Source of the DNA: Dysidea avara
Lineage: Eukaryota > Porifera > Demospongiae > Dictyoceratida > Dysideidae
DNA: 64,000 bases
Direction of reading: 5' to 3'
Assembly (NCBI RefSeq): GCF_963678975.1
Contig: NC_089274.1
Location: forward strand, 20,421,133 to 20,485,132
Shown: positions 7,400-35,300 of the stretch, piece by piece
Numbering within the stretch: position 1 is the stretch's first letter
Layout of the letters: every line of letters begins with the position of its first letter
The notes under the pieces: generated by a model
What the model was told of the DNA's origin: nothing
Seen by the model: only the letters and a program-made list of their open reading frames with translations
Database searches by the model: none
Position numbers and translations under genes: made by a program

Positions 7400-8677
7400 A
7401 CAACCAGTGCGACAGTTCCTGAAGTTTCTGAGACTACACCAGTATCAGTATTGACAGATACTACTACACCAGGTACAGTTTCCACATCCAGTACTGCTCC
7501 TCCAGCACCAGTACTCACAATGCCAACGTCATCTTCGACAACCGGATTGCCGGTCATCCCTCCACCAATCTTCAGTACGCCTGTACTTCACTCAGGGACA
7601 AGAGCGACGTTGGCTTCAGTGGTGTCATCTGATGTTTCAAGCCCGCTTCACTCCACTGCTTTAAGTGTTGGTCCTTTGCCCATGGTGAAACTACCCAAAC
7701 TAACTTTAAAGAAGTTTAATGGTGACCTCACGAAGTGGACACCTTTCTGGGACTCCTATGAATCCTCCATACATAGCAACCCCAGTTTGTCCAACATTGA
7801 TAAATTTGTCTGCCTTAATTCACTGTTGGAAGGCCCAGCATCAGAATCGGTGGCGGGATTAAGGATCACGGCGGCCAATTACAACGAAGCAGTATCTATT
7901 CTCCAGGGTAGATTCGGTGACATAGATCAAATCGTGGGTAAACACATGGAGGCACTACTTTCCCTGGAAGTAGTTACTTCACAGTACAACTTGAAGGCAT
8001 TACGTCGCTTGCACGATCAAGTAGAGTCACAGGTGAGGGATCTCAGAGCCCTTGGCATTGCAGCCAACTCCTATGGTAGTTTGTTGTCACCCGTAATTTT
8101 GAAGAAGCTTCCCCAAGAACTACGCCTAATTGTGAGTCGAGAAGTAAGAGAAGGAAGATGGAATTTAGATGAACTGATGAGACTGATTGATGTGGAAATT
8201 AAGGCCAGGGAATGTGCTTCTAACATGTCCAATGCAAGCACTGACGGTAACCGTCTACCCAAGGCTCAAGGCAAGAGCCTGCCTACTAACACTGCGCTGT
8301 ATTCAAGTGAATCCCCTGTTCCTAAGTGCTCTTACTGTAGACAACAACACTCCTCCATTTCATGTAGAACGGTAACCGATCCAAATGAGCGTAAGCAAAT
8401 TTTGAGGAAGGCGGGAAGGTGTTTTGTGTGTCTCAGAAGACACCACACAAGCCGTGATTGTCGCTCTACTTTAAGATGCACGGGCTGTGGAGGGAGGCAT
8501 CATACTAGTATTTGTAATGGACGAATGATGCAGGATGGAGCTAGATCCCAGACCATTAGGCAGAATCAAGGTACTGGTGGTATTCCAACTACTATTCAAC
8601 CTCAGATGCTGCAAACCCAGGACGCACCCAACACTGGTGGAATGGTTCCCAGCAGACATGGGGCCAAGTACATTTGA
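6998..8677 (+). pseudogene. BEL gag, interrupted
   Basis: The 559-codon frame starts with a charged segment and then a Thr/Ala/Ser-rich linker whose poly-alanine run (about residues 109-133) comes from a GCT microsatellite. From residue 229, MVKLPKLTLKKFNGDLTKW begins the DUF1759-type gag domain of Pao elements. Cys/His zinc knuckles (CSYC ... CFVC ... CTGC) lie at residues 444-505. The last residues before the stop are encoded by the inserted MITE: true gag sequence stops at 8652, and the same frame resumes at 9247. Translation in the present state ends early. Confidence 0.85.
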
Positions 8678-9238
8678 AAGTACTTAAGTAAAGTACAAGT
8701 ACTTTTGAATTTTCCAAGTATAAGTACAAGTACTCTGGCAACAATCAAGAGAGTATTTAAGTAAAGTACAAGTACATGCTGGAAGTACTCAAGTAAAGTA
8801 CAAGATACACTTATTCAGTGTATTGTAGTATGTAAGTGTACCTAGTGGGGTTGGTACTTTCAGGTTTTTGTCAACTATTTACTCTCTTAAACACTTAAAA
8901 TGCACTAACTTTAGCAGCAGCATTGTTTTTATTTGCCAGAATTCTATGACATCATTAATCGTGGCTACATGATACATAGTAAGGTTAGGGAAGGCACTAG
9001 AAGAATTGTACAATGCACCTTCATGCAATTTTGTAATGTACCCACTGTGTACAAACTACGTACAATGTTTGCAGTACTTAAGTACTCAAGTACATACAAG
9101 TATTTAGCAAAGTACTTGAGTATAAGTACAAGTACACTGGGGAAATTAAGGAAGTATTTAAGTAAAGTACAAGTACTTTCAAATCTGTACTTCAAGTGTA
9201 CTTAAGTATAAGTACTCATGTACTTGGCCCCATGTCTG
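8653..9238. mobile_element. hAT-type MITE inserted in gag
   Basis: The terminal inverted repeats begin CAGACATGGGGCCAAGTA (about 21 bp) and are flanked by a perfect 8-bp duplication GTTCCCAG (8645-8652 and 9239-9246). The interior is packed with AAGTACTTAAGTA and AAGTACAAGTACTT motifs on both strands. There is no coding capacity. The gag frame phase is the same on both sides of the element, so the insertion hit an open frame. Confidence 0.9.
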
Positions 9239-9246
9239 GTTCCCAG

Positions 9247-10801
9247 TATGCCAACTACCACTGCTGCATTTCAGAGTAGTACTACTAAGGTGCCAGTGTT
9301 GTTGCAGACAGCACAAGTGTCTGTCTTCAAGCCCTGTGAGCCAACTATATCAATGAACATACGGGCAATATTTGATAGCGGAAGCCAACGATCTTATATA
9401 AGTGAGAGGGTGAAACATTCCCTCTCATTAAACACGCTATATTCAGAAACCATGTTAATCAAGACCTTTGGGTCTGAGAGGGGCAATAGACAATTGTGTG
9501 ATGCTGTGTCAGTGGGGATCAACCTGCGAGCTGGGGGGAGTATGAACTTATTGTTTTTAGCTATACCGTTTATTTGTGAACCGTTGTGTGGCCAAACAAT
9601 ATCATGTGTAACAGAGCGATATGAGTATCTTGCTAACCTAGATTATGCAGACTACTCATGTGATGGTGATCAATTAGAAGTAGACATGTTGATTGGTGCT
9701 GACAATTATTGGAAATTGGTCACTGGCAAGCTGATTAATAGAGGTGATGGTCCTACTGCAGTTCATACAAGACTTGGATGGGTATTGTCTGGACCAGTTG
9801 AAGGCTTGCTATCTCAGAATACATCATGTAACCTTGTGTCGACTCATACTTTGAAGGTGGATGGCTATGTGCCACAGGAGTCTGAGCGTAGTTTGGACAG
9901 AACTCTCAAGTCCTTTTGGGACTTGGAGTCACTTGGCATAAGGGAAGGTGAGGTGGATGTGTACGAACAGTTCCAGAAGGAGATATGTTTTAAGAATGGG
10001 AGATATGAAGTTAACCTGCCGTGGAAGGAGGCAACTCCCACCTTACCATCCCACTATGAATTATCCCTGAAGAGACTTACCGGATTGCTTAGACGCTTGA
10101 GACAGTCTCCAGACATACTCCGACGTTATGATGATGTGATCAAGGAACAGCTTGCTGCTGGAATTGTGGAAGTTGTGAAGGATGAAGGGTCTCAGAGTAA
10201 GTTGACCCATTACTTACCGCATCACCCAGTAATCAGAGAGGATAAGTTGACAATGAAGGTCCGGGTGGTTTATGATGCCTCGGCCAAAACCCAAGGTCCA
10301 TCTCTTAATGATTGCTTGTATGCGGGGCCCAAGTTTGACCAATGTATTTTGGACATACTACTTAGACTCAGGTCACACAAAGTAGCACTGGTGGCCGACA
10401 TAGAAAAGGCCTTTCTAGAAATCTCAGTTGCGCCATGTGATAGAGATGTACTATGGTTTCTCTGGATTGATGACGTACACAAGAAGGTATCAGAAGTCTT
10501 GACACTAAGGTTTGCCCGAGTTGTCTTTGGAGTGTCGTCAAGCCCATTCCTTTTGAATGCCACTATCAGACATCATGTAGAGAAATACAAGGATATCGAA
10601 CCATCATTTGTTGAAACCTTTAGTCGTTCTATTTATGTAGATGATGTCAGCTTCGGAGCAGCAGATGATGATAGTGCCTTTGACCTCTATGCCAAGGCTA
10701 AGAAGATACTACTTGATGGAGGTTTCAATTTGTGTAAGTTCGTGAGCAATTCTGAGGGACTACAGCAACGCATAGAGTCAATCGAGGGTGGGCAAACTGC
10801 C
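9247..10801 (+). pseudogene. BEL pol: aspartic protease and reverse transcriptase
   Basis: The open frame runs from 9218 (the first codons are MITE sequence) to a TGA at 10802-10804. An aspartic-protease active site, FDSGSQRSYI, is at about residue 53 (DUF1758 type). The BEL-specific linker with LPWKEATPTLP follows, and then the RT with VRVVYDASAK, ADIEKAFLEI and the catalytic YVDD at about residue 473. The domains needed for cDNA synthesis are recognisable, but the reading frame is closed at 10802. Confidence 0.88.
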
Positions 10802-17110: not shown

Positions 17111-17224
17111 GAAATCTCTCGCTAGTGTGGGGCTCGCTCAGGCTCGCCCCAATTATTCATTCATTATCAATGACATAATTTTAACCGCATTTCGTATTAT
17201 TCTTGTATAATTAGATTTTACAGC

Positions 17225-18375
17225 ATATACAAGGGCAAAGTGACACAACGAAGGAGATACAAAAAGAAAAGGGTGTATAGTGATGGTCTGGTAGCAACCT
17301 GTGCTACCAGCCATAAGATTAATAACAATTAATTACTTACAAAACAGAAAACAAAAGCTTTACTTACAGAAAAAAAGGAAAAAGAAGCTAGCTACTTAAA
17401 TTACTTATGTAAAATTACAGGAGCTATATAAGCACATTTATTAGAAGGACACAAATAAGAAAAAGTACAGGGATTATCAGGGTTGAAATGATGAATAAAA
17501 TTGTTTCATTGGTGTTTGTAAATTATTTACCTGTTTGTTGAAACGAAAGGGTGCAATCAATTGGGGGTAGGGAGTTCCAGAGCCGAGTTAGTCTGTAAAA
17601 GTATGAATGGCGGGTAACATTGTTTAAGGCAAGTTTGTGTTCTAACTTGTTGAATGTTGATGACCAAGTAGGACCTGTAACAAATGTGATATAGTCGTGA
17701 ATAATAAATTGTGTAGATGGTTACTTCAAAGATTTCAAGCAAAATACAATATCTAAAAGCTCTAAGATGTACATCAGTGGCAGTCTTTGGAGTTTAACTA
17801 GGCGATCAAAAGAAGAAGAGTGATAATCATTTAATATAAATTTTATAGATCTTCTTTGAATAATAAAAGTATGTCTTTTGATAGGTGAGGCCTCCAAACT
17901 GGTGAATAATAAGATACCTGTACTGTGACCTGACCAAGGTTAAATAGAGCTTTTTCATAGCCATAGGGTTGTGCGAACTACCAAAGGTCCATCGAAGTAA
18001 ACCCAAAATTTTGTATGCTTTAGCAGTTATGTAAGAAATGTGAGAGGTCCATGTCAGGTCTGAAGATATAAGGACTCCTAGGTCCTTTTGTAATTGCTTT
18101 ATAGGAATATCAGAACCATCTATATATAGGTGATACTGCATGAGCATGAAACTTACATTTAAAACTCAAGTAGTTCCTTTTATGGTGTTAAAGATTAAAT
18201 CTGTATCATGACTCCACAGTGAAAGAAAGTCAAGATCTAACTGTAAGTGAATAGTATCTTCCTGCTGATTAATTCTCTTGAAAACTTTGGTGTTGTCAAC
18301 AAATAAGAAACATTTAGAACTTTGAAGATAGAGAGGAAGGTCATTAATGTAAATTAAGAATGACAGGGGGTCATT
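17225..18375 (-). pseudogene. LINE reverse transcriptase fragment, minus strand
   Basis: From 18375 downward the translation reads PLSFLIYINDLPLYL and FLFVDNTKVFKRI, which is the catalytic FADD region with the second D changed to N. It continues KQLQKDLGVLISSDLTWTSHI, LYLTLVRSQYRYLI, then LQRLPLMYILELLDIVFCLKSLK. Several stops and shifts interrupt it. The 3' end (to about 17225) has no long poly-A. It is a CR1/Jockey-like LINE fragment, catalytically dead. Confidence 0.7.
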
Positions 18376-18379
18376 TTAT

Positions 18380-19185
18380 ATGCATACATGCAGTTTATAT
18401 AATGTACATTAAATTTGAAAATTTACAAGGTTTACCAAATTACAGTATATTGCATTTTGTTAAGCATGTGTGACAACATTTGGTGTGTTATTGGCTAACA
18501 TATACGTATCATAGTTATAGCCTAAATTTCTGGAGGACAACTTTCACAGTATACATTTTTACATAGCAAAGAACTACATATAGGACTGTCCATACAAAAA
18601 TTTGTCATAGGTACTGATAATACCTTCCTCTGGCTGCTCAAAAGGTTTAGTAAGTGGGTACATCTATACTCTAAGTAGTAATTTAGCTATGTTAGAAGTA
18701 GCTACTAATGCGGTACTGCAATATGTTTCCTGGACAATCAATTGACTGTGGGTGTTCTGTGTGACAAGTTGAAGTCGAAATCTCATGTAAAGAATTTTGT
18801 CAAGTTTTGGGTGTCAAAGTCTCACAACCATCAGTTGATGCAGTGTCCAAGATGTGAATAAAACTAAAAACTCAAACTTTCTGAGAAATTGAATCAAAGA
18901 AAAGGTCAGCCATGATTAAAAGGGACTCCCACCTTCGATGAACATGAACTTGCAAACTGACAATCATACATACGCAAGAAGAAATGCATGGTTTAAATTT
19001 AATCATCATTAATCAGAGACTATTATGATTACATTTTCCAAATGTTGGAGGCTTACAAGATGTAAGAAAACAAAACACTCTATGTCTTGAAAAAGAAACC
19101 TGCGAGTTTGTTCAGATTTCAAATGATAACTTAACCTAGTCAACAATAAGGTGAAACAGAAAAGGGCCAAAGAAAGGAAAAAAAA
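18380..19185. other. No gene seen
   Basis: AT-rich sequence without a supported reading frame, RNA gene or complete repeat. Confidence 0.5.
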
Positions 19186-19189
19186 TCTC

Positions 19190-19262
19190 TCCTACCCCAG
19201 GATTAGAACTGCAGGCCATCCAAGTCTAGTCAAGTGCCACACTCAGTCTCCTCCAGGAGGAA
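19190..19262 (-). repeat. Possible tRNA-like SINE head
   Basis: The minus strand reads GGAGACTGAGTGTGGCACTTG with a B-box-like GCAGTTCTAATCCTGG about 35 bases later. The A-box is poor. This is a weak call. Confidence 0.3.
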
Positions 19263-19726
19263 TGAATTTTCTTCCTTTAAACCTAAGTATTTATTGTCAT
19301 TAACACTTTACAGTGACATTTACATATGTCACACCACTCCATTCAATTGGTGTTCGGTTCCCTAGTGCAACTTAACAAGATAGTTCATGTGACTGTGGAT
19401 TGTTTTCATTGGCATATGCCTGCAATGGAGTATAGCTTGAACCAGAAGCTTCATAAAAATCTAAAGTCTTGGGAGCCATGATTTGTCTAGACCTTTGGCC
19501 TCACCTTTGAGAGAAAATTACCAAATTTATTGTGTTTGCCGACTGCCAGACTGTGGAGACAGATGGTGCAGTGTTGAAGTTGTCATAAATGGCATCACTA
19601 TATTATATACTTGTGCTGGCATATACCTAGTGACAATAAAGTGAAGGGCATGTGATTTTGTAGAAACTGTGACCAACACTAAACCAGTATGGGTATAGTT
19701 GTGTATGCTTTTTGTTGTTTTAGCAG

Positions 19727-19945
19727 CAGCAGCAGCAGCAGTAGCCCAGGTGGTAGGGCATCGACCTGGTGAAAAAGAGGTCCCAGGTTCGATGCTTGAG
19801 TAGGGTGTTGCTACTGCTGTTACCTTCAGCCAAAAGCTTTACCCCTATTGCTCCAGCAACCCAGCTGTAAACCAGGAACATATTGTGCAATTCAGGGCAC
19901 AGCTGAAGAACAGCCTTGTCATCCCTGTAAATATAAATTTTTTAA
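19727..19945 (+). repeat. tRNA-derived SINE (family 2)
   Basis: TAGCCCAGGTGGTAGGGC (A-box) and AGGTTCGATGC (B-box) form a tRNA-like head. An unrelated body follows, ending in an A/T-rich tail near 19925-19945. The second half does not fold as a tRNA, so it is a SINE rather than a tRNA gene. A GCA-repeat precedes it. Confidence 0.55.
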
Positions 19946-19949
19946 AAAG

Positions 19950-21080
19950 CAGTTTGTTTCATTCATTATTAGCAGTGATTTTGTACTGAAACTAGACCAG
20001 TGATTCACTGGTTTGTACTGTTTTAGCAACAGCTTGTCAATCATTATTTGACCGAGTGGTTAATTAAGTAAAGTTAGTTGTGATCAACAAATAAATTACA
20101 TTGCTAGTTAATACACGCTGCGCTTACATTAAAATCTGTATTAAATAAATGCCACGCTAGGTCTGGGTGTAAGACTATAATACCCTAGTAATAGCCTTGC
20201 ACACATATACTGGTAGTTATACTATACCTTATGTGCATGGGGTGTTACCTCCTGGCGCCTAAAATTCTGGGTTCCAAAGTGTCTGTCATAGAGAAAAAGT
20301 TACAAGTGCCACAAGAAAATAGGTGAATGAAGCAGTTACTATAATTAATGGTTAAAATTGAAATAATTACTTAGCAAATATCTTTTGTATTAAGGCCGTG
20401 CAAAGTTACTTATATGTTTCTGGTCCTACCAATTCCCCAAAATTCACCAGGTGACCAGGCATGTTTTTTTCTTTTTTTGGTAACTTTTGATGTGGTATAC
20501 ACTACATCTGAGATAGCAGTACATGGAATTATAGGGAAAGATAAGCTAATGTATAATAAAAAAGTGTATACAAGACATGAAAATTTTTCAACAGATAAAA
20601 ATTATTGTATGGTGATTGCACAATTTATTCAGTAAAAAATGACCAGGAAGGGAACCAGAAACATATAATTAACTTTTCATGGCATATACCTTACACTCGA
20701 ACTGTTGGCCATGCCACCCACATGGATTTTCTCATGCATTGCAACCCAAAGTTGAATTCCAGGAGATGATATTATAAACAAAATTCATTTGACAGAGAGC
20801 AACTAGACAAAAGAGGGAAGTTGATTAGCAAAGGATGGAGATATAGTGACAAGTAACAAACAGATCAAATGATATAATAAATGATCTATAAAAGGGACAC
20901 AAACATCTAATCCTGCATGCATTAGAGTAGTGATTATAATAGTGATTCAATTTTTGCATAACATAAAGCAGTAAAATGGCTATATATCTATTAATTTATT
21001 GCCTACAAAGCAGCTGTTTGAATTATCAGTTTACAAGTAAACAACTAAAACTAAATCAAAATTAATGCTGTAAAAGTTGC
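19950..21080. other. No gene seen
   Basis: The short reading frame at 20414-20635 has no recognisable domain. Nothing else is supported in this AT-rich stretch, which lies just beyond the 3' end of the minus-strand kinase-helicase-transposase frame. Confidence 0.45.
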
Positions 21081-21084
21081 AGTG

Positions 21085-21348
21085 TCACAGTAGCTTTATT
21101 TCGCCCTTATCCACACCCTGTTTTAAAGAGCGAATTGTTTCATTTTCATCTGGCCCACAACCATCGAAGGTGATTACATATCCTCTAGATGAATAAGAAA
21201 TGACTGTTCCCTTGTACCATCTCGTTGTTTGTTGATCATCTGAGTTATAGTACTCTACAGCTACTTGGAGACCAACAGCTTTCTTACCTGAAGGAACTCC
21301 CAATGCAGTTCTGCTTTCTGGGGCTTTGTGAGGTCGACGATTTCTCTT
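21085..21348 (-). pseudogene. Tudor/agenet-like C-terminal tail
   Basis: In the same frame as the transposase after TAA 21349, a basic stretch (KRNRRPHKAPESRT) leads into VGLQVAVEYYNSDDQQTTRW, WYKGTVISYSSRGYVITFDG and a stop at 21085. The pattern VxVEYYN ... WYKGTVISY ... YVITFDG is that of a small Tudor- or SH3-like barrel. The domain name is inferred. Confidence 0.45.
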
Positions 21349-21786
21349 TTACTTTTTGGTTTTATATGAAATAGTAATTCCAACCTCTGAAGCAATTTGC
21401 AATACTGCCTGACGACGATCTTCTAGGTAGAAGTGTTCAACTAACGGTTTAAGTGAAACTGAGTCTGGTGTACTTTGCCTGTTAATTGACTCAACAGGAT
21501 TGTTAGTGCCAGGTAGGTCATCCCATTCATCATCGTTTATAGAACTGAAGGCTTTGCTCAATTTCTGCAAAACTGCAGGACGTGTCCACCAGTCAGTCCA
21601 TGTCTGTACCCTACTCCATCTTACTGTGTCTACTTCTCCTGAAGAAACATTACATAAGGGTGGTGGTAAACTTTCTGACAATTTTGTGAACAGTTCAGAT
21701 CCTGATAGAACATTGAAGGCTAATTGTACTTTATCCTTTGATGGATTATCAGGTATTCGTTTTGCAACTGACATGAAAATTTGATA
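21349..21786 (-). pseudogene. DDE transposase, C-terminal part
   Basis: Reads YQIFMSVAKRIPDNPSKDKV ... WTDWWTRPAVLQKL ... LPGTNNPVESINRQ, ending YKTKK at TAA 21349-21351. TNNPVESIN matches the conserved C-terminal TNN-x-x-E motif of MULE transposases, with E as the likely third catalytic residue. Confidence 0.6.
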
Positions 21787-21793
21787 CCCCAAT

Positions 21794-22298
21794 CAGTGAT
21801 GGGAGTAACGCGTTACGTAATATTATTACTTTTGTGGTAACTAAGTAATATAACGAAATATGCTATAAAAACGGGTAATATAACTCAAGTTACTTTACTT
21901 ACAAATGTAACGCGTTACCTAAGTAATATAGTTACTGAAACGAGTCTAATATTACATAATATTATTACTACAAGTAACGAAGTTACTAATCTCGTTAGTT
22001 ATCCTCTGAGTAACGCCTAGCCACAACGAAGTAACGAAGCCTACTAAATGAAGCTTATTCACCAGCTTCTTACTTGTAACCAAGATTTGCACATTGTCCA
22101 ACACCGCAATCATGTCACATGATAAAGTGGTAGTTTCACACGTGACAGCTTAAGGCTGTGGACACAAAGTAATATAATATGTAATATTATTAGTTACTTT
22201 ATTTTATGAGTAATATGTAACTGTAACTAAATAGTTCAGTTGCAAGTAATATGTAATATGTAACTAGTTACTTTTACAAAGTAACTTGCCCAACACTG
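21794..22298. mobile_element. hAT-type MITE inside the transposase
   Basis: The ends CAGTGATGGGAGTAAC and CAGTGTTGGGCAAGTTAC are inverted relatives. CCCCAAT is duplicated at 21787-21793 and 22299-22305 (7 bp visible). The interior is dense in GTAATATTATTAC and GTAACGCGTTAC motifs. It lies between HSLG and YQIF of the transposase, with the phase conserved. Confidence 0.8.
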
Positions 22299-22299
22299 C

Positions 22300-23368
22300 C
22301 CCAATGAATGTGTAGAAGGGTTGACAATTTTTGCTATTCTCATAGCAGATCTTATGAAGTGTACTGAACAACCACGCAGTATATTGTTGATTTCCATACC
22401 AAAGGAGTCTCGAAAGGCATTAGCCTCTCCCTCTGCAAAATCTAAAAGGATTTCCTTATGAGCATTGTCATTTCATACCTTGGAAAAGCTTGCTTAATAA
22501 GCAGACAAAGCTTTTCCTATAGACTCGCCATCTTGGTGATTCATCAGCACCCTGCCACATAACACTTCGTATTGTTGTTAAAACATACAACATTAAAAAG
22601 GTAAGGGAAATGATGATTCCCAGTATAATCAACATCAACGAACAAGGCATCTGCCTTGTACCAATGATACAATTGAAAGGGTGACTGAAAGAAAGCGTAT
22701 CTCCTGTCTCTTGTAAATTGATATGCATTGTCTCCATCAAGTTGGTATGCTCCAATCAGTTTATCAATTTCTTTGCTTCTGCTTTCCAAGACTGTGCACT
22801 GTTTATCTATTCTTGCTTTTATGGCAGGGAATGATGCAATAATCTTAAATGGGTTGACTTTATCATTATCTATTTTCTCTACTTCCTTCCTTACTTTTTT
22901 CACAGTTGCTCTCATTCTATCTAAATTTATTGCAGGCAAAGATGCTTCCATTGGACGATATGGCATTCCAACCCCTTTTTGTAATTCTTTGGGTGTGACT
23001 GACAGATTGTGAGAAACGGCATTAGAAATATCTGTTAATACTCTAGGGGAAATTTTCCATTCTGAAGGTGCAGCGTGGTTATGCATGGTGTTGCCAGTTC
23101 CTGTATTCATAGCAACAAACCATCGTCTACCATCTCCATCCAGTTCTTTTGGGTAAATGTATACAATGTGGCAGCAACATGGACCACTTGGTTGGAGAGC
23201 CATGGTAGGATGCTCCTCACAACGGTTTATCTTTTGCTTGGTTGAAACAATATAATTGCATCCTTCTCCTGCACATATTTTGACTCCAGAACAATAGGAT
23301 CTGTTCATCAAAAGAGTTTTCCTTATTCCATCCAGCTTTACTTCTAATTCCTTAACTGTTGCCTGGCT
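22300..23368 (-). pseudogene. MULE-like DDE transposase, N-terminal and catalytic part
   Basis: A Cys/His-rich region (CSGVKICAGEGCNYIV ... CEEHP ... DGRRWFVAMNTG ... HNHA) resembles the WRKY/FLYWCH-type zinc fingers of Mutator-like transposases. A helical spacer follows. ALFVDVDYTGNHHFPYLF gives the first catalytic Asp. After shifts near 22545, LLDFAEGEANAFRDSFG ... RGCSVHFIRSAMR gives the second Asp and the C/H motif typical of MULEs. The insertion at 22298 interrupts it. Confidence 0.65.
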
Positions 23369-23371
23369 TCA

Positions 23372-23940
23372 AGATAGCTGAAGGCAATGAAGCAGATAGT
23401 GAGGATCAGAGGTGGCATGTGGGGAATTCTGCACTTCAGGGAAGTACAAACAAATCTCACTCTCTGTTGATGCTGTACCAAACCCAAGGAATTTTAACTG
23501 GTCTGCGTCACCTGGTTGCCACATCTGCTTTTCAAAAATGTTCATCAACCTAGGCTTCACCTGCATTCCTCTTGCTTGCGAGCTCTTTGTTGGACTAATT
23601 GTGATATCCTGTGAACTGGCCAGTATCTTTTCAATCACAGTACAAGATGGATTCAATGACATCACTTGTGTAGGCCTTTCTAAATACTCTTCTCCTTTAG
23701 GGGAAACCATGTATCGACGATGTACTTCATAATGGTTTTCAAAAGGTCGAAATGTGAAAGAAAGATCTAGTAGGCAGAGATGAACAGCAACGTATAATAC
23801 TTTGCACCATGAAAAGCTTGACATTGGAGTATCTGTTATCACCATACCACAACCCCAAGGTACGAGTTCATTATCTATAGACTCCAGGCACTTACATATA
23901 TATGGACTTGTTGATTCATCAAAACACCTACTAACAAAGT
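23372..23940 (-). pseudogene. Segment following the helicase
   Basis: The frame changes by one at about 23940, and the coding continues FVSRCFDESTSPYICKCL, WGCGMVITDTPMSSFSWCKV ... EDYLERP-like residues, to a TGA at 23369-23371. The translation continues in the same frame beyond the TGA (SQATVKELEVKLDGIRKTLL) into the transposase part. No known domain was recognised. It may be a linker between the helicase and the transposase. Confidence 0.5.
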
Positions 23941-25682
23941 TTAGTTACAGTGCTCAACCCTGCATTGTGAAGCTGTTGCACAGCAGACAGTAGTGTGCAC
24001 AGATAGTCCTTAATATCACAGCACTCTTCACAAAGCATATCTGATGTCTTACATATCATGCATAGAGGACTATTCGATACAAAGCAGGTGGGAGGTTCTG
24101 TATCACCTGCACCTCCATAAAAAAATGAGAGAGCCCAAGACAAACATTTACCGTGATAAACACTGTAAATAAATCGCCAAGCTTTAACATAATTATGAAT
24201 CATCTCACACTTCTTATCTTCATGTGCCTCCTTATCATCCCCATCTATTGCGCAGTCAAGTGCTTCCTTGACCCACAAACCTAAACGTTTGTCATCAACA
24301 CATTCATTGAAGTAAAGAAAAGCATTTGCTACCATGCCATCTTTTCTGCCTGCACGGCCAAACTCCTGTAAAAGAACACCGAGATTCCTTGGACAACCAA
24401 TTCTGATAACTTGAGTAATTCTAGGATTATCAACGCCCAATTCGTAAGACTCAGTTGCCACCAGCACAGAAGCGTCCCCTTTTAAGAATCTTTTCTCTAC
24501 TGAAACTCTTTCTTCAAATCGCACATTACCTGTGTACTTCAATGCAGTAGTCTTATTCTTTTTCAGCAATTCAGTCATCTGCTCAACATCACTTACAAAA
24601 TCTAGGTACACTACAGTAACATTCGAATCTAGAACTTCTATGATGTCTTGTGCAGTTCTTGACCAAGATGATGACTCAATTGATAGTGAATCACTATTAT
24701 CCCTTTCAGCATCATCTACTGAATCTATCTCGGCATTGTCATCTAATGCAAGAGGCTTTTGTCTTTTGTATCGTCTTAAATGCAACATGAGGTTTTTCCA
24801 ATGCACACCTTCAGTTAGTACAACACAGTTATCACTGTGTAAAAAATCTGCTCGAAGAATTTGTATTTGATCTTCTGTCAGAGTAGCAGACATTGCAAGG
24901 AGCTTACACTCCAATTGTCTCAACCTTTTAATGCCATCAAATGCTGGTCGATATGATGGCAATGTATCTAAAATCTTGTGGGCTTCGTCCAAAACTATGA
25001 GATGCAAATCATCTACTTTGTCTTTTAATGCACTAAACTGACCGATGGTTGCCTGGTAGCGTCCATTTGCTGGTGTCCCAAATAAATATTCAGGGGTGCA
25101 AAATGCAATGAGAGGCCTCTCACTATCACATGGGCTCCTTAACACTTTGCGAAAATTCATTTGGCTGTTTTTTCCTGCAGCACCGCCAAGTGCAAATGTA
25201 TCTATCACCTTTAATTTCAAATTTTGAATTTGGTTTGTAATAACTGCTATCATTGGCTCTAATGTTATTTTACCAGGGTTCATAAGGGCTGATGCAACGT
25301 AACAGAGAGATTTACCAGAACCTGTCGGCTGCACAACAATGACATCTTTTCCACCCTGCAATGCTTCAATAGCAGCTACTTGAAAATTTTTGTATTGTGC
25401 CACCTTCAGTTTAGATTTTAGTGATTCTAATTCTGTTATAATGCAAGGAGCCAATGATGGTTGTGAGCTGTGAGGAGAGATAGAATTGCTTGGTGCTTCA
25501 TGTGACTGTTGAGACTGATAAGTACTACCACCAAAATCAGTAATATCTACATCTGGCTCATCTATGTAGTTATCACTATCAGGGCAATCATGCGCACTAT
25601 TCTCTTGCCTCGCATCAAATAAGTCTTCTAAAACTTTCAATACTGCTAGTGCATTAGGCCTTGAGTCTGGATCCTGCAACAA
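23931..25682 (-). pseudogene. RecQ-type DNA helicase domain of the fusion
   Basis: The frame opens with the kinase end (QDPDSRPNALAVLKVLEDLF), then an acidic/Ser-rich linker to about residue 90. The helicase follows: VQPTGSGKSLCY (Walker A, residues 117-128), LDEAHKIL (231-238), AMSATLTEDQ (264-272), VATESYELGVDNPRI (408-422) and LLQEFGRAGRKDG (438-449). A Cys-rich segment (CMICKTSDMLCEECCD) lies where RecQ proteins bind zinc. No RQC or HRDC domain is seen. All core SF2 motifs are kept. The DEAH and QEFGRAGR motifs and the linker to the Cys-rich part point to RecQ. Confidence 0.85.
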
Positions 25683-26198
25683 CGTTGAAACCGGGTCACT
25701 ACTGCTGACCTGGATGACCCACTGACCCGGATTTGACCCGGATGTGACCCGGATTAATTAAAGCCGAGACGTGTTTCGGCTAGTCTCGAGCAAGCGAACG
25801 AGTCTACATTTTGAGCGTTCGATTTGTGTTGAGTAAATATTGCAACTTCAGCCTAGCTGTAGGTTGAAGACCAACAAAAAAAAAAAAAAAAAAAAAAAGT
25901 CTTCACCTACTGACAATACCCTCAATTTCGTGCTACATACTACACTTACTAACAAATGAGCGTGGCTGAGCGTATGTTGGTATTGCGATAAGTGGGCGTG
26001 GCTCACGAAAGAGCTACGCGATAGCGTTTATAAGTTTCCACGTCGTCAAACGAACAATTTTGTTTCTCACGTGATCCAATCCGGGTCAGACCCGGATAAA
26101 TTGTAAACCGGGTCAGACCCGGATGACCAGGAGAAAATGTGACCTAGATGACTGGGAGAAAATGTGACCCGGATGACCCAACCCGGTTTCAACGCTGT
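25680..26198. mobile_element. hAT-type MITE inside the kinase-helicase frame
   Basis: The ends CARCGTTGAAACCGGGT are inverted and flanked by a perfect 8-bp duplication TCCTGCAA (25672-25679 and 26199-26206). Multiple CCGGGTCA-type motifs lie at both ends, with an A-run at 25877. It splits the kinase motif ECWLQDPDSRP, and the phase is the same on both sides. Confidence 0.9.
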
Positions 26199-26206
26199 CC
26201 TGCAAC

Positions 26207-27046
26207 CAACACTCTTTGATTAAGCCAGAAAGTGTTGTGTCTACATTTGTGGGAAACACAGGCCGTAACCCATGCCGAACATTGTCAATTAATGCCATAG
26301 AAACATTGCACCATTCAGGCTTGCAGCATACTAGCTCATAGGCAAGTATGGAAAACGCATGTATGTCAGAAGCCTTGTTAGGTCTCAGTGGAAACGCACC
26401 ATTTGAAAGCAATACTGGTGACATGTAACCAAGTGTCATTAATTGTTTCATAGTAGTAGAATGAGAAGAACGTTGTGGGGCTGTTGGAACATTAGCATAG
26501 TCAGTAAGCTTAAAAACAAACTCATCATGATGCAACCCATTTACCCAAACATTTGATGGCTTAATATCTCCATGTATTATGCCATTACGGTGGAGAAAGC
26601 CAACGCCCTCAATGATGTCAGTCAGCACAATAATTGATAAATCAAGAGGCATCTCATTTCCATAAATAACCATTAAGTCTTCAAGTGAATGCACAACCTC
26701 ATCTCCTAGTTTCTTTTCACAAAGCTCCATAATTACATAGCCAGACTGGGGGCAGAGACCCTACTTTAGGATGATCATGCATGTGCAAATATTGCTCGTA
26801 TGACTTTACAAGTGAACTAGCTTGGCTATAAGAATAACCCTTCAACTTCTTAACAGCAAATTCTCTACAATTCATTGTACCTACGTACACTCTACTGCTT
26901 GTACCATCTCCTATCTCATTCGTTAGTGATACAGTTATCTTTCCCTCCATATTATATGGGCTTTCCCACACAAATGACTTGTGTGATGGCAGAGTCACAT
27001 TGATCCTTCTGGGTCGCTTCTTTGGTGGCTCCATTGCTAAGGGGAG
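26207..27046 (-). pseudogene. Protein kinase domain of the fusion
   Basis: Starts MEPPKKRPRRINV after a possible splice acceptor (TTTTCTCCCCTTAG) at 27049. Visible kinase features are the glycine-loop region NEIGDGTSSRVY, the ATP lysine in EFAVKKLK, and the catalytic loop IIHGDIKPSN (HRD changed to HGD). DFG is replaced by DYA (KLTDYANV), but D is kept. The APE region is YMSPVLL. A later segment reads NKASDIHAFSILAYEL, followed by the ECWLQDPDSRP block, which crosses the MITE at 26198. An extra base in a C-run at about 26746 shifts the frame. Whether it was catalytically active cannot be decided from the sequence. Confidence 0.75.
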
Positions 27047-27989
27047 AAAAGTGATCATCACTAGTGGTGCTCCACAGCAATACTACCCAATCTCTGTAAG
27101 CATACTGTACCTCGAATTGCAGCGTTTATGCCGGTGTCACAGTGATATATGTTTCCCCGGGTAACGTGTTTCCCGCACATATATCCCTAGGGATCCGTGT
27201 TTCCCCGCACACATATCACTAGGGATCCGTGTTTCCCACCAAAAGCTGTCAGTGATATGCGTTTCCCGTAACTATTTTTTTAATATTTCACCGCACACAC
27301 ATATCCCTAGGGATTCGTGTTTCCCCGCACATATATCACCAGAGATCCGTGTTTCCCACTAAGATATTAGCCATCGTGCAGTAACTCCAAGGTCCTATGG
27401 CTAGTTGCAAACAGTACGCGATCCAACCATTCAGTAGATATATAGCTATCTAGTCCATGCATATTACATGTATATAGCTATAGTTAGCTAACTAGCTATA
27501 TAGCTACTATATAAGCTAATACAATAATTATACTAGCTAGCTATATTGTGGCAGTCAATTTAGAAGAGACACTGTGTACTGCATGTATGAGCCAGTGGAG
27601 AATAATAAAATAACTAAAGGTTTATAGCTAAATTAAGTTTGTGCATGCATGCCTGACTGATGCGCATTCATGTGAGAGATGTTAGGCTCTGAAGTGTCAA
27701 ACATACATGCGTGCATGTGCTGAGAGATTTCTATGTGGCATAATTATTTAATTAGCTATAGATTTGCTGAAAGAAAAGTGTTGTGAGAGATTTTAGAAGT
27801 GTCAAGCATGTGTATCTATAGCTATAAATAGGCTGATAAGTTTTCTGCTGAGAGAAAACTGTTAGCCAGCTGAGAAGTGTTGCTGAGAGAAAACTGTTAG
27901 CTACAGTATGTGATATATTGAGAGATCTTCAAGTGAGACTGAGAATTTTGTGTGAGACCCTTGAAGCACCTAGCTGCTGTCACTGGGGA

Positions 27990-29700
27990 ATGGAGGATGA
28001 ACAGTATGCTGCCATCATAGGCTATTTGGATAATCAAAGTTATCCAGCTGGTTATACAAAGTCACAGAAATTTGTTTTACAAAGAAGCTGTAAAACCTAC
28101 AAAATGCAACAGGAAAAACTCTATTATGTGGATACTGCTAAAGATGGAACAACATTTGACAGGATAGTATTACAAAAGAATGAAATAGATAGAGTTTTTC
28201 TTGAGTGTCATTTAACTGCTGGTGGACATAAAGGTAGAGACGCTACCATAGCAAAAATCAAGGAGCGGTGCTATTGGCCCAACTACTATAAGGAGATTGA
28301 AGAGAGGGTAATTAGCAATATAGCTACATAATGTTGATATTGTGTTGCATGTTGTCACTGTTGTGCTAAACTGTTATGCAGTTTCGCATGTATGCACCAA
28401 TACACTGTCTATAACTACTGTAACACATATGTATGCATACATGCGAAACTGAAGCTATATATAGTATATACTGTGTAATATGATGTGTCAGTAGCTAGTA
28501 TAATTTTAAAATGCACAGATCAAATTGTGTGACCGTTACCAGCGAAATGCTCCGTAGTTGAAGAAAGCTGCAATAGAATTACAGCCTATTGCTGTTGCAC
28601 CCAAAGTCTGGTATTTAGTTGGAATGGATTTGATTGGCCCATTCAAGCCAACTCCTCAAGGGCACTAATATGTTTTAACCATGACAGATTATTTCAGTAA
28701 ATTTGTTGAAAAAGTTCCCATAGAAGACAATTAAGTCAGCAATTTCAGTTGCCAGAGGAATATACAAGGTATACTGCCACCAGGGAGCTCCAGTGCACAT
28801 TATTACTGACCAAGGAAAAGAGTTTGCATGTTAATTAGGTATGCATAATCAGCGGCGGAGGAAGTAGTTGATATGAGGGGGGGCTGGGCTGACCCAGACT
28901 TACTTCTATAGTTTGGTAAGGTGAGACCAAAAAAAAAAAAAAAAAAAAGGTCACAACCAACTGACAAGAGCTTTTCACCTCACTAGCTACCATTTCTAGC
29001 TGATAAACTACATAAAAATCCTTTCATAGCTCGCTACACACTGACTACTTTATTAGAGTGACTGCTCTATTAGAGTATCTCGATCTTTATCACGGTTTTC
29101 AGCCCCACTCCAAGAAAGATAATTTCGGTGTGATATCATTCTGAGGGGGGGCTTTAGCCCCCTAGCCCCCCCCTTTCCGCCGCCTATGTGCATAATTGTG
29201 GTAGCTGCAACTGTAGCTATTCATGCACTAGCTAAATGTAATTGTCATTGTTTTGTTTCAGACTAATGAAGCTTTACAAAAAGCTTTTGATGTCAAGATG
29301 TGAATAACAACTGCATATCATCCCCAATCGAATGGTCTTGATGAAAGAACAAACCAGACATTAAAAAGGTATATATATTATGCATGTGACAAAATTTATT
29401 TCTAAGTTCTGTTCCTACAACTATATTATGTATACTAATCAACCAGCATATTATTGTTGTTGTTTTTTTATGTGCATATGTTCAGATCTATGTCAAAGCT
29501 CATGGAAGACTGTTCAGATAACTGGGGAAAATACTTCGATTCTGCCATTTTTGCGACTAATACCAGTGTGACCAAAATGTGACCAATGCCAATGTTGGAC
29601 ACATGCGCATTGTGCAAACACCACCATTGCTGAAGTAAAGAAGAGCACATTTCTCTGTGTAGAATGCTACCAGACTAAGCATAATATTGAGCAATTTGTA
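27990..29700 (+). pseudogene. Ginger integrase (four deduced exons)
   Basis: Exon 1 (27990-28307) encodes YPAGYTKSQKFVLQRSCKTY and the zinc-binding segment ECHLTAGGHKGRDATIAKIK. Exon 2 (28519-28838) has CDRYQRNAP, GMDLIGPFKPTPQGH (first D) and HIITDQGKEF (second D). Exon 3 (29262-29368) has TAYHPQSNGLDERTNQTLK (E). Exon 4 starts at 29486 (SMSKLMEDCSDNWGKYFDSA). Donors GTAATT, GTATGC and GTATAT and acceptors ending CAG fit. Stops occur at about 28551, 28668, 28732 and 29300. It is related to the vertebrate domesticated gene GIN1 by family. The exon limits are deduced from sequence only. Confidence 0.7.
28850..29188 (-). mobile_element. hAT-type MITE, family A copy 3, in Ginger intron 2
   Basis: The reverse orientation of family A: begins CAGCGGCGGAGG, ends CCGCCTATG, with a perfect 8-bp duplication TGCATAAT (28842-28849 and 29189-29196). 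It lies between the deduced donor at 28839 and acceptor at 29261, so it would have been spliced out. Confidence 0.9.
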
Positions 29701-30149
29701 CATTGATTAGTTATCATACATAGCTGCAATCACATGATTTACTGTATATAGCTAGAGATAGTATTTTTATTGTATACATGTACTTGTAGCTACTGTTTTA
29801 TTAAACTGATGTTATAGCTACATAGCCAAATCACAGCACAGTTCTAGTTGAATGCCAGTGAATGGCTTGATTTCCTCCATCAGCATGTGTAATTATAGTA
29901 TTAGTATAGTATAGGTAAGTGCAATGGCTAGCTATGATTATTAAAAGTGCATGCGCGCCTTTATGCTAACACTACGTACGTTGCTCATGACTTTAAAGGG
30001 GAAACATATTACCCGGGGAAACACATATCACTGTGACTTGTAGGTCGCTAGCGAGTAAGTGATATGCGTGCGGGGAAACACGGATCCCTAGGGATATGTG
30101 TGCGGGAAACACGTTACCCGGGGAAACATATATCACTGTGACACCGGCC

Positions 30150-30477
30150 GTCAGAACAAGCGTAAGAATTCTCTATAAATCAGATGTTGAAGTAGATACC
30201 CACAATGAAATCTATAATGTTGGCGGGTATTATCACAGTACAGTAACAAAGTTTCACATTTCAAATTTCACACTTACCAGTTTGGTGGCATGGTCCAAAG
30301 GAATGCGCGCGAAAACAGCACGTGCGAAAGAATAAAACTCGAGGTAAAACCCCCAATGCTAATTACGTTTTGAACGAAATCACTGAGTTGCAGCTAATTT
30401 ACTGACTGCATTAACATGGTTCCGTACAGAAACATATTAACTTCGTTGGATATACCGCAATCTAAGGTACGCCAATG
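30150..30477. other. No clear gene
   Basis: On the minus strand there is an ATG (ATGCCACCAAACTG) followed by a good splice donor GTAAGTG at about 30275. It could be an untranslated or first exon of the kinase-helicase frame with the Ginger element sitting in its intron. Support is weak, because the phases do not join as coding. Confidence 0.25.
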
Positions 30478-31340
30478 TGTTAAAGGTTTTAAGGGAGCAA
30501 CATTTCCCCCTTCTTTTTCGACGTGTGATATCAATGGTTTTTATCATTCGTAGGCATTCTTGCTGCCATTTTGATGTTTGATACTAAAGGTTTTAAGCAA
30601 TGGTGTCTGATAAATTCACTACCTGTCCCTACGTTTTATGTAAAAGGTCTTACCAGTTGCTGGCATTACTGCTACCACTTATACGTTTTATACTAAGGCC
30701 CCTATTTGCTGATTATTAGTTTCTCATCCACCGCCCGCATCCCTCTTAAGCTACCGCATGGTAAGCCATTATTTACTCTGCGCATGCTCAGAAGAACACG
30801 TGATATCAAACTGTTATAATTTTTGTTGATGAACGCTACAATGCGCTATATATCACCAGGAGAGCTGTTGTTTTCCTTAGCAAATTGCTGCAGTGCCAGT
30901 TGCAATCGTGCTCTATCAACTTCATCAAAGCAGGCTTTCAGTTGACTGTCGAAAAACAGTTGGCGATCACGAAAATTAGAATCAGCTGGTGAAGGAAGTG
31001 TTTGTAGTAAGAAAGAAAGACAATTTGGACAAGGTCTGTACATCAGTGTGTTAATATTATAAAATAATGGCATAATGGTAATACCCTCCCGCCCGCATCA
31101 TAATAATTAGAAAGGCTGGATGAGAAACTAATAATCACCGAACAGGGGCCTAAAGGATTTGCCTGTCGCTGTTAGACCTGCTTCTTTTACGTTTACTATC
31201 AAAGGTTTTACCTGTCGCGGATATACCACCTGGTATGTATGTTCTGTATTTAAAGGATTTAGCCGTCGCTGTTATCCCAACCATATGGTGTTTCCTTTAG
31301 TTGTAAAGGATTGGACGCTTCGCTGATTTCCCACCTTCGT
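30478..31340 (+). repeat. Degenerate tandem repeat, about 50-70 bp units
   Basis: Variants of (AC)TAAAGGTTTTACCTGTCGCTG followed by about 30 variable bases recur at roughly 30480, 30530, 30585, 30640, 31152, 31195, 31248 and 31300. The Harbinger MITE at 30697-31150 splits the array. Confidence 0.55.
30697..31150. mobile_element. PIF/Harbinger-type MITE
   Basis: Inverted ends of about 35 bp (GGCCCCTRTTYGGTGATTAT, then TAGTTTCTCATCCA), flanked by TAA (30694-30696 and 31151-31153). The 3-bp TWA duplication and GG-starting ends identify Harbinger. It contains a 75-codon minus-strand frame (30846-31073) with PSPADSNFRDRQLFFDSQLK, possibly a captured or residual coding piece. Confidence 0.85.
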
Positions 31341-31349
31341 TTCATTCCT

Positions 31350-32370
31350 TTATATTAATAACAACCTACATCAATATTATATATATAATACCTATACCCC
31401 ATTTGTCCGTAATCTGGTAAATTTGTTGTATACTCTTTCGAGCTGATTCAATTCCCACAGTGCAAAGGCCACAGTGTAAGTCGTTTTGGTGTGTCCATGG
31501 ATTACTGGTGAGTGTTTTATTCAAATTCCTACCTCACCCCAAACATGACGGCTTACCAGACCGCTAGTGAATCGTTCGGCTCGGCTTGAACCCATACCGA
31601 AACCATAATACAGTAGCCTAAGGCATAGAATGTACTACAACTCAAGCTACAACTTCGTAGCACCCAAGAATTTCCAAGACAGAAATTCGGAAATTTGGTA
31701 GAAATTTGGAAATTTGGTAGAAATTATCCAGAAATTAGAAATTTGGGTTGGCACATTTCAAAATTTCGTTGATAGATTTTGTATGTGAAGGACCCCCCGC
31801 ATTGATAGGTGCATTATAACTCCAAGGTTTTGAGTCTGATTTTTCTACACCATTGAAGAGCCTTTCTAAGATGATTACTCCATCTGTACAGCGATTTTCA
31901 AAGCATTACCCCAAGCGGTTTTCTATAGTAGGCGTGACAAGTAGTTGTTTTATTAGCTAATTTCGATTGCATAATTGTTACACTGTTGGTTTTTCCGTTA
32001 TATCTTCCTGGTTTTTAGCTCGATTTCTTTCAAACCACAAAAGGTTTGAGGTTCAATAGTTAACCTATTCACCCACCGATTTTCAGCTTCTTCCCGTAAG
32101 CGGTTTACTATGTGGCGTGACACATATTGGTGTTATTTTTCGTGAATAATCGATATAACTCTTTGCCTGTTTATCATATTCCAACCAAAGTTGGTACCGA
32201 GATGCTCCTTTATATCCCTCTTCTGTGTGCCAAACTTGGATATAGCGTTCGCATTTTATAGCAGTTTTTGTAAGTGAGCGAGTGTGCGAAAAGAGGAAGA
32301 AAATAAGAAAAAAAAAAAACTTAGGTAATTGTGTGTACTTACAACATCACATGCAATTACAAAAATTATT
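31350..32370. other. No gene; faint duplicated block
   Basis: A roughly 130-bp block (CGATTTTC...AGC...CCCGTAAGCGGTTTACTA ... GGCGTGACA) occurs in two diverged copies at about 31885-31965 and 32080-32155. No coding region. It lies just downstream of the NACHT-LRR stop codon. Confidence 0.4.
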
Positions 32371-32372
32371 AG

Positions 32373-35300
32373 TTATAATTTCAATTGTACAGTATAACTA
32401 AAAAAACTTGCAATTTCATCTGCTGCTTCATCACTAATATTGTTGTTATTCATATCAAATATTGTCAGAGTTGTAGTAGTTTGTAAAGCTCTTGCAATCT
32501 CAATGGCACCTGCTGTTTGTAAATTGTTTCCACCTAGATATAGCTTTTGTAGTTTAGTGTTATTAGATAGAACTACTGCAATATCATCTGCTGCTTCATC
32601 ACTAATTTTGTTGTTGTCTATACCAAACAATGTCAGAGCCGTGGTACTTTGTAAAGCTTTTGCAATTTTAATGGCACCTGCTGTTTGTAAATTATTTCCA
32701 CCTAGATATAGCTGTTGTAGTTTAGTATTATTAGATAGAACTACTGCAATATCATCTGCTGCTTCATCACTAATGTTGTTGTTCCCCATACCAAATATTG
32801 TCAGAGTTGTGGTACTTTGTAAAGCTTTTGCAATTTTAATGGCACCTGCTGTTTGTAAATTATTTCCACCTAGACGTAGGTCTTGTAGTTTAGTATTATT
32901 AGATAGAACTACTGCAATATCATCTGTTGCTTCATCGCTAATATTGTTTTTCTCCATACCAAATATTGTCAGAGTTGTGGTACTTTGTAAAGCCTTTGCA
33001 ATTTTAATGGTACCTGCTGTTTGTAAATTATTTCCACCTAGATATAGCTGTTGTAGTTTAGTATTATTAGATAGAGCTATTGCAATATCATCTGCTGCTT
33101 CATCACTAATATTGTTTTTCCCCATACCAAATATTGTCAGAGTTGTGGTACTTTGTAAAGCTTTTGCAATTTTAATAGCACCTGCTGTTTGTAAATTATT
33201 TCTATCTAGATCTAGCCCTTGCAGTTTAGTATTATTAGATAGAACTACTGCAATATCATCTGCTGCTTCATCACTAATATTGTTTTTCCCCATACCAAAT
33301 ATTGTCAGAGTTGTGGTACTTTGTAAAGCTTTTGCAATTTTAATGGCACCTGCTGTTTGTAAATTATTTCCACCTAGACGTAGGTCTTGTAGTTTAGTAT
33401 TATTAGATAGAACTACTGCAATATCGTCTGCTGCTTCATCACTAATATTGTTTTTCTTCATACCAAATATTGTCAGAGTTGTGATACTTTGTAAAGCTTT
33501 TGCAATTTTAATGGCACCTGCTGTTTGTAAATTATTTCCACCTAGATATAGCTGTTGTAGTTTAGTATTATTAGATAGAACTACTGCAATATCATCTGCT
33601 GCTTCATCACTAATATTGTTGTTGTTGATATCAAATATTTTCAGAGTTGTGGTATTTTGTAAAGCTTTTGCAATCTTAATGGCACCTGCTGTTTGTAAAT
33701 TATTTCCACCTAGACGTAGGACTTGTAGTTTAGTATTATTAGATAGAACTACTGCAATATCATTTGCTGCTTCATCACTAATATTGTTGTTCCCCATACC
33801 AAATATTGTCAATGTTGTGGTACTTTGTAAAGCTTTTGCAATCTTAATGGCACCTGCTGTTTGTAAATTATTTCCACCTAGATATAGCTGTTGTAGTTTA
33901 GTGTTATTAGATAGAACTACTGCAATATCATCTGCTGCTTCATCACTAATATTGTTGTTCCCCATACCAAATATTGTCAGAGTTGTGGTACTTTGTAAAG
34001 CTCTGGCAATCTTAATGGCACCTGCTGTTTGTAAATTATTTCCACCTAGATATAGCTGTTGTAGTTTAGTATTATGAGATAAAATAACTGCAATATCATC
34101 TGCTGCTTCATAGCCAATCTCACTGCTTAAAATTACAAATGTTTTCAAAGTAGTAAAATTCTGTAACTGATTTCTAGTTGCAACACAAAGAGCTGATGGC
34201 AGTGTGTTTAGATATGATGCACATGATTGACCACTATGGTACACAACAGCTGCTAAATAATCAACTACTGTGTTCCGTGGATTAATTTGGTATATTACTG
34301 AAGCAATATTCATTGAGTAAGCACCTTTTGAATGTAAGTTAGACCCACAAATAGTGACATGAATATTGGCAGGTAACATGTATACAGACTCTTTACTGAT
34401 ATAAACACTGACATCAATATTAGCTATTCTTGATATATTTATTTGCTTTGTAAAATTCTTTAATATCCCAATCATGTCATCATTCAAACTGCAATTGTTA
34501 AACTGAGCACAATTAATATAACCATCATTTTCACACACAACAATCATTTTGTTTTGTTTAGGTATGTAGTTCACTAACATTCTGTTGTTAAACCGGTTTC
34601 TGCCAATCGCACTTCGTAATTTATTGGAAAAATTATTTATCATTTTAGTGTTTGTGCAATTATACAGACTATCAATTGAAATGATTACTTCTTTAGTGTT
34701 CCAGAATCTCAAGATGTCAGAAAATTTGCTAAGAGATTCCCAATGTATATCATTGTTAGAAATGTCAACAGTTTTGACTGTTACACTTTGAGAATGAAAC
34801 ATTTCACACAAGACATTACAGCACTTCTCATCAATGTTACAGTTTGATAAGTTAATCATTTCCCACTGCTTATTGGGTGATCTTAATAGTAGAACTGCAA
34901 GTGTGTGTACATCATTAGGTGACAAGGATTGGTGACTGAGGTCAATTACTCCTCCCTGGAATATATTCTCAACAGATGGTAACATTTCATGATCAGCTTC
35001 TGCTAAACAGTGTAACAGGTGAAGACATTTGATCTTGTCTTTTAATATTTTATTTGATAAAGCTGAATTCTTTATAAGATGGCTGGACATTTTGAACCAA
35101 TTTCCAGAAAGGAAGTGTTTAAATACAAATCTGTTACCGCCAGTTATGCCAACATACATTATCCAAGTGTTGCAATACTGAACATTCCAAAATGTGTCAT
35201 TGAGTATTTTTAGCTGCATCTTGTTTGGTAGTGAGGCAATGTGATGGGCTGCCATGTATTCTTGAATAGAAAAATGAAGGAAATGAAATGATTCATGATC

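Follow-up and report, generated by a model that had tools for sequence, protein, structure and literature searches.

Does a stretch of sponge DNA in which a protein kinase, a RecQ-type helicase, a Mutator-like element (MULE) transposase and a Tudor-like domain follow one another encode one protein of a mobile element, or have unrelated genes come to lie side by side? The question is raised by a locus of Dysidea avara (contig NC_089274.1, positions 20,421,133 to 20,485,132), the 64,000 nucleotides of which are referred to here as the window (feature coordinates are collected in Table 1). The locus proves to be a decayed copy of a mobile element, undamaged copies of which are present elsewhere in the same genome. 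The 5′ terminus of the window copy is GGGTATAGG at 31399, and homology with two relatives (L022 and L024) can be traced to ~17196. On the minus strand, the coding region reads from an ATG (27034-27032) to a TGA (21087-21085) in the order kinase, helicase, linker, Cys/His-rich region, transposase-like region and Tudor-like tail. Two small elements have inserted into it, and with frame changes and stops, including one in-frame TGA, they leave the reading frame in at least six parts (stop-to-stop frames of at least 100 amino acids: 27082-26717, 26760-26113, 25757-23931, 23944-23369, 23368-22544 and 21792-21349). Two interruptions affect the kinase, a frame change near 26.75 kb and an insertion of 517 bp, past which its C-lobe picks up again with QDPDSRPN...; the helicase/linker junction is a frame change at ~23.93-23.94 kb, the linker/transposase junction is the in-frame TGA (23371-23369), and the transposase changes frame again near 22.54 kb and carries an insertion of 505 bp. 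All these joins are uninterrupted in intact relatives. The original prediction, made from the window alone, had placed kinase and RecQ-type helicase on the minus strand in this order, which matches to Pfam PF00069, DEAD and Helicase_C bear out, and had correctly seen the transposase join cross a single in-frame TGA. Its single open frame, and the direct join of kinase and helicase within it, do not exist in the window, where the frames are broken and the kinase is split; both are found in the intact relatives. A scan of the window against Rfam gave no match at gathering scores.

The transposase piece retrieved 55 database homologues, and in one of them (P0036) helicase tail, linker and transposase lie in one frame. 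A search for long proteins returned 16, six of which (P0056, P0058, P0064, P0067, P0068 and P0069; 1630-1745 amino acids, the first residues of P0056 and P0069 possibly missing) span the whole from kinase to tail. P0059 (1644 amino acids) lacks the tail only, and the remainder are partial. Identity to P0056 ranged between 49 and 74% for the seven other proteins of alignment A1. The same genome also contains intact ATG-to-stop frames of 1681 (L037) and 1815 (L039) amino acids, each spanning all six sub-domains without a stop; that such copies should be looked for had been part of the original prediction. The fusion is therefore genuine and not peculiar to the window: kinase, RecQ helicase, transposase and chromatin-reader-like tail are joined in a single giant protein. 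No relatives were found in the viral contigs, genome contigs and phage records searched.

The kinase of the window matches PF00069 (E 1.5e-16), and its family was assigned from the nearest solved kinase to P0058, which is RIPK1 (E 3.8e-18). The motifs (V/L)A(V/I)K (with the catalytic Lys), HGD(I/L)KPxN, (T/A)DY and APE are kept in all seven kinase-bearing proteins, and the glycine loop, in its strict pattern, in six of them; the HRD position reads HGD, and the DFG position reads DY(A/S/C/V). Judged by sequence, this TKL/RIPK-like kinase thus has the residues expected of an active enzyme (catalytic Lys, HxD Asp/Asn and DFG-like Asp). The helicase has the superfamily 2 core that defines the RecQ family (window: DEAD, 6.3e-19; Helicase_C, 1.4e-15). 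Its best solved matches are RecQ (E 6.7e-29 for P0058), RECQ1 and BLM, and QPTGSGKS, DEAHK, SATLT and GRAGR are present in 7/7 kinase-bearing proteins. The RecQ model TIGR00614 has a cut-off of 219.8 bits, which the kinase-less relatives P0072 and P0081 reach and the kinase branch, at 160-167 bits, does not (311 bits for P0072 versus 160 for P0056). Behind the core, an RQC-type fold was predicted over model residues 39-171, the winged helix of which resembles generic winged helices as well as RQC. Pfam gave no RQC or zinc match for the kinase-branch proteins, and P0074, of the kinase-less branch, scored above the RQC cut-off (24.9 versus 23 bits).

The Cys/His-rich region that follows is presumably WRKY/GCM1-like. 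For the transposase, neither Pfam by itself nor a sequence-profile search of the PDB with alignment A2 gave an identification; the fold search alone succeeded, with a match of the predicted fold to ISCth4 (IS256) over model residues 430-759. The DDE residues correspond in the window to D 22630-22628, D 22442-22440 and E 21492-21490. The MULE-like DDE transposase of the original prediction is upheld by its homologues and by the IS256/MULE-like fold that structure prediction returned. The tail, which had been proposed as Tudor-like, can be called Agenet/Tudor-like on Pfam matches that are sub-threshold throughout (21.3 of 27 bits, E 3.8e-4, in the relative P0063). Its Foldseek matches to Spindlin and FMRP have probabilities of 0.91-0.99, yet E values of 0.2-0.3.

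Searching the 550.8-Mb assembly (108 contigs) gave 114 rows, 26 of them near full length at ≥55% identity, the window included. Of the other 25 near-full copies, 20 were examined as 10-kb stretches. On DNA similarity, these loci and the window divide into groups A (L034, L036, L039 and L040), B (L035, L037 and L038), C (L026, L027, L028, L031 and L033) and D (L021-L025 and the window), with L029, L030 and L032 outside. The element has multiplied recently. DNA identity within groups is mostly 93-100% (down to 85% in short flank pieces) and extends past the open reading frame (ORF), the homology has a sharp 5′ end in groups A, B and D, and the flanks of the copies are unrelated outside the common termini. 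When frame changes were allowed, all six sub-domains were covered to at least 90% in 14 of 21 copies (the 20 loci and the window). The 3′ end is missing from the aligned stretch in L021, L023 and L029, half of RecQ in L026, part of the kinase in L040 and most of the region preceding the Cys/His region in L030; the L025 stretch begins past the kinase, its 5′ terminus lying 2 kb upstream. All copies except L037 and L039 (19/21) are interrupted or incomplete.

Five of the seven group A and B copies, or five of the six in which both termini were seen, carry an exact target duplication (9 bp in L034 and L039; 10 bp in L035, L037 and L038), that is, 9-10 bp of varied sequence directly before the 5′ terminus that is repeated after the 3′ end. 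These five elements are 7.9-10.0 kb long, the longer ones carrying further insertions. Their tips read GGGAAT or GGGTAT and ...GAATCCC, GAATCCG or GAATTCCG, and therefore form an inverted repeat of ~5 bp. Long terminal inverted repeats (TIRs) were looked for and not found; beside the ~5 bp, the ends have degenerate inverted subterminal repeats. Of the TIRs and 8-9 bp duplications for which the original prediction had suggested a search, the duplications are thus there, at 9-10 bp, and the TIRs are minimal. In L034 and L039, TCATGGCGA has two forward occurrences close to the 5′ end and six reversed ones close to the 3′ end, with none in the interior; it is absent from the two group B copies counted, where a bias was seen for GGCGA alone. 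In group A, CAGCGA has forward orientation throughout at the 3′ end, at odds with simple inversion. Similarity between the 5′ end and the reverse-complemented 3′ end exceeded that of 20 simple shuffles each in L034, L039 and L038.

The D-type 5′ terminus was found in eight places, plus one partial head-to-head match; at G000:C13:5002016-5002424, two such termini lie head to head, ~260 bp apart. In the window, the presumptive target duplication GGACAAATG before 31399 had no exact partner in the stretch searched, and the 3′ terminus was not found. A match with one mismatch at 11534 was taken as chance, there being no recognizable element end, and the one-mismatch matches in L022 (one) and L024 (two) do not lie at a recognizable end either. 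L022, L024 and the window were traced to the end of shared homology, and the ends of group C were not reached. D-group homology stops at or just past a TAATAA-type, retroelement-like tail (L022, ~11884; L024, ~11948; window, 17196).

Kinase-less relatives also exist. The same genome contains ten near-full rows at 27-30% identity, of which the one read (L048, 2690-6460) combines RecQ, transposase and tail in one frame of 1256 amino acids, which aligns collinearly with the kinase-bearing protein across RecQ and transposase; no kinase match was found in the 6.7 kb of its locus. A search with this frame returned 15 proteins. In P0081 and P0083, RecQ and a MULE-like transposase share one protein with sub-threshold B-box matches (E 8e-4 and 3e-4), and P0083 begins with 140 residues that match ubiquitin (E 2.6e-7 when summed over polyubiquitin; single matches, 2e-4 to 1e-3). 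Transposase-only elements, or else fragments of broken copies, may account for the short proteins P0076, P0077, P0078 and P0080. Trees built from the transposase (24 rows) and from RecQ (15 rows) both separate the kinase-bearing proteins from the rest by a branch supported at 100/100. A single gain of the kinase is likely, its direction depending on the root, which was set by midpoint. The pairing of RecQ with the transposase is probably older because it is common to all three branches.

Taken together, the element is with high confidence a Mutator/MULE-type DNA transposon that moves by cut and paste and encodes one protein of ~1630-1815 amino acids, in which a RIPK-like kinase is followed by a RecQ helicase and its RQC-type module, the Cys/His region, the DDE transposase and the Agenet/Tudor-like tail; intact single frames, multiple copies and target duplications thus support what the original prediction had made of the locus. 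Several observations count against this account. The structural model has a low predicted template-modelling score (pTM, 0.42), TM-scores to ISCth4 are 0.36-0.37, and the Pfam MULE family (PF10551) was matched below threshold (15.0 bits versus 27.6; also 14.2 and 13.5 bits; E 0.035-0.1). In L036, which has both termini, the 9-mers on either side are unrelated; L040 is without the 5′ motif in the stretch examined; and none of five D copies tested, the window's included, has an exact 3′ duplication. L048 lacks the kinase, so that, if its family is mobile, the kinase is dispensable for transposition as such. In favor of the account, the ratio of nonsynonymous to synonymous change (dN/dS) between L037 and L026, L028 and L031 (three of the five group C copies) points to purifying selection (kinase, ~0.12-0.15; RecQ, 0.13-0.16; linker, 0.06-0.07; transposase, 0.05-0.06; tail, 0.08-0.09). 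These values are rough, since synonymous differences between subfamilies are close to saturation (pS mostly 0.6-0.8), and the purifying direction and the rank order alone can be taken as fairly secure. On the other side, change is fastest in the kinase and the spacer (nonsynonymous difference, pN, 0.36 for the kinase versus 0.13 for the transposase). Kinase dN/dS was not computable for L037 versus L034 and L039, and within group B one RecQ value of 2.0 and a kinase value of 0.54 rest on too few differences to be read.

Could the parts then be a kinase-helicase gene of the host and, behind it, an independently inserted MULE copy? Their different frames in the window and the weak Pfam signal of the transposase-like region would fit such a chance neighbourhood, which is nevertheless refuted, and has a negligible probability, given the one frame of P0036, the six proteins and two genomic frames that run from kinase to tail, and the collinearity of L048. 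A host gene that segmental duplication has multiplied into a family, with no transposon involved, would explain several intact or nearly intact frames, and the lack of target duplications in the D group and L036. It is hardly credible in view of the unrelated flanks, the exact duplications in five of six A/B copies with both termini, the damage to 19 of 21 copies and the retention of the DDE residues. That the element belongs to a described helicase-bearing family, Academ or KolobokH, both reported with RecQ helicases (PMC3627910 and PMC9587614, in the parts available), is very unlikely as well: its duplications are 9-10 bp and varied, not TTAA as in Kolobok, and its transposase fold matches IS256/ISCth4, though the Academ and Kolobok transposases themselves were outside the comparison.

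For the transposon reading, a mechanism can be proposed in steps of falling confidence. The DDE core would cut the ends and insert them with a 9-10 bp stagger (fold, residues and duplications point to this); the Cys/His region and the winged helix would bind the subterminal repeats; RecQ would probably open or remodel the ends or the excision gap, favoring repair that restores the donor copy; and the tail probably reads chromatin and would thereby steer insertion. The kinase stands apart. RIPK-type kinases are activated when two molecules meet, and because close contact switches them on, pairing of two transposon ends might bring two kinases together and activate them, whereupon they would signal paired ends by trans-phosphorylating the complex or repair proteins close by. 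This is the role favored here, with rather low confidence, and signaling directed at the host is at least as likely. The kinase might indeed act outside the DNA steps, as a passenger or regulator that, for example, phosphorylates host immune or DNA-damage proteins so that the element persists, for which the chances are a little short of even. RIPK1, to which the nearest solved structures belong, is an immune and cell-death kinase, the kinase evolves faster than the transposase, and relatives do without it or carry B-box and (P0083) ubiquitin-like domains instead; against this role stand its restriction to one clade, the catalytic residues kept across deep subfamilies and its being fused rather than a separate gene. 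More broadly, and again with rather low confidence, a RecQ-MULE-Tudor chassis may have acquired host signaling modules N-terminally (a RIPK-like kinase in one lineage, B-box and ubiquitin-like domains in another), the kinase acting as a phosphorylation checkpoint, switched on by end pairing, through which excision would be tied to DNA repair or immune signaling of the host. Kinase, DDE transposase and RecQ helicase in one polypeptide would tie DNA cutting, repair and phosphorylation signaling together. The undamaged natural copies allow kinase-dead, helicase-dead and transposase-dead versions to be compared directly, and the kinase-less and B-box/ubiquitin-like relatives are a natural series on how transposons gain host regulatory parts.

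Table 1. Features of the element copy in the window (positions of the 64,000-nucleotide stretch).
Feature	Position	Strand	Basis or remark
Whole window copy of the element	17196..31399	-	As far as traceable; homology with L022/L024; 5′ terminus common to other copies
Coding region of the four-domain protein, broken	21085..27034	-	Sequence; tblastn with P0056
RIPK/TKL-like protein kinase domain	25637..26950	-	Pfam, tblastn, motifs of relatives; interrupted by insert 25681-26197
RecQ-family SF2 helicase core	24144..25418	-	Pfam, tblastn; RecQ assignment via relatives P0058 and P0056
Cys-rich RecQ-zinc-like module and RQC-type winged-helix domain	23635..24087	-	
Cys/His-rich zinc-ribbon-like region	23068..23368	-	Alignment A1
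MULE/IS256-type DDE transposase core	21384..22843	-	Alignment A1, predicted fold; broken by frame changes and insert 21794-22298
Agenet/Tudor-like tail	21085..21261	-	Sub-threshold Pfam, tblastn, Foldseek
453-bp insert	30697-31149		Comparison with relatives
3-kb TIR element in 5′ non-coding part	27135..30143	.	91-nt arms, 98%; absent in L021 and L022
Miniature inverted-repeat transposable element (MITE) in kinase	25681..26197	.	9-bp target duplication GTTGCAGGA; absent in 4/4 relatives spanning the site (L021-L024)
MITE in transposase, CAGTG...CACTG	21794..22298	.	7-bp overlap in comparison; absent in L022, L024 and L025

The window copy itself has been invaded by at least four elements (the 453-bp insert, the 3-kb TIR element, the kinase MITE and the transposase MITE), each of which is missing from at least two relatives. 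The inverted arms of the 3-kb element (27130-27220 and 30058-30148) were considered as long TIRs of the main element and rejected, since they belong to the nested one, which also contains a scrap that we take to be a gypsy-like integrase (27852-28331). The kinase MITE is possibly a MULE derivative itself, and a piece 76% identical to it lies at L023 577-940; the transposase MITE is presumably hAT-like. Elsewhere in the window, a 168-bp tandem repeat (32409-34111; ~10 copies, 92% matches) has stops in both of the frames that were read, two of the six. In L037, a nested 554-amino acid frame (7972-9636, minus strand) resembles what we assume to be a reverse transcriptase of a long interspersed nuclear element (LINE).

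Mutator/MULE transposons produce target duplications of 8-11 bp, typically 9, and some MULEs lack long TIRs. The present element has a DDE transposase with a predicted RNase H-like fold of the IS256/Mutator type, duplications of 9-10 bp in five of seven A/B copies and no long TIRs. Because long TIRs are not required of all MULEs, it is assigned to the Mutator/MULE superfamily at that level, and not to the TIR-MULEs. Academ, by comparison, belongs to a different transposase superfamily.

With MULE/MuDR and IS256, the element shares the D...D...C-x-x-H...E order, the ISCth4-like predicted fold and a duplication of the 9-bp class (the available part of PMC3627910 gives 9-bp duplications for MuDR-type elements), but it differs in fusing RecQ, kinase and Tudor-like tail to the transposase and in its TIR of ~5 bp. 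KolobokH likewise is a DDE transposon encoding a RecQ helicase alongside its transposase; according to the accessible text it is reported from fungi only, with RecQ downstream of the transposase and TTAA duplications (PMC9587614), whereas here RecQ lies upstream and the duplications are not TTAA, and the word kinase occurs nowhere in the main text of that paper. Academ, too, is a DNA transposon with a RecQ helicase, and the passage seen on it mentions no kinase (PMC3627910). A DNA transposon with a kinase is known in IS3EU, where, in the portion consulted, an alpha-kinase accompanies TET/JBP as a separate gene in opposite orientation, in fungi and with another transposase (PMC12730594); the same source describes MuDR elements with SET genes. 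Excerpts on fungal subtelomeric RecQ repeats (PMC4522978) and on the RNase H superfamily (PMC3985635) held no closer match. No description of a kinase-RecQ-MULE protein was recognized in the open PMC literature; Repbase was not searched, and prior cataloguing there is possible. In the same genome, kinase-less L048 has RecQ, transposase and tail in one frame, as the element does, but lacks the kinase, and its RecQ, judged by the TIGR00614 score of its homologue P0072, is closer to canonical.

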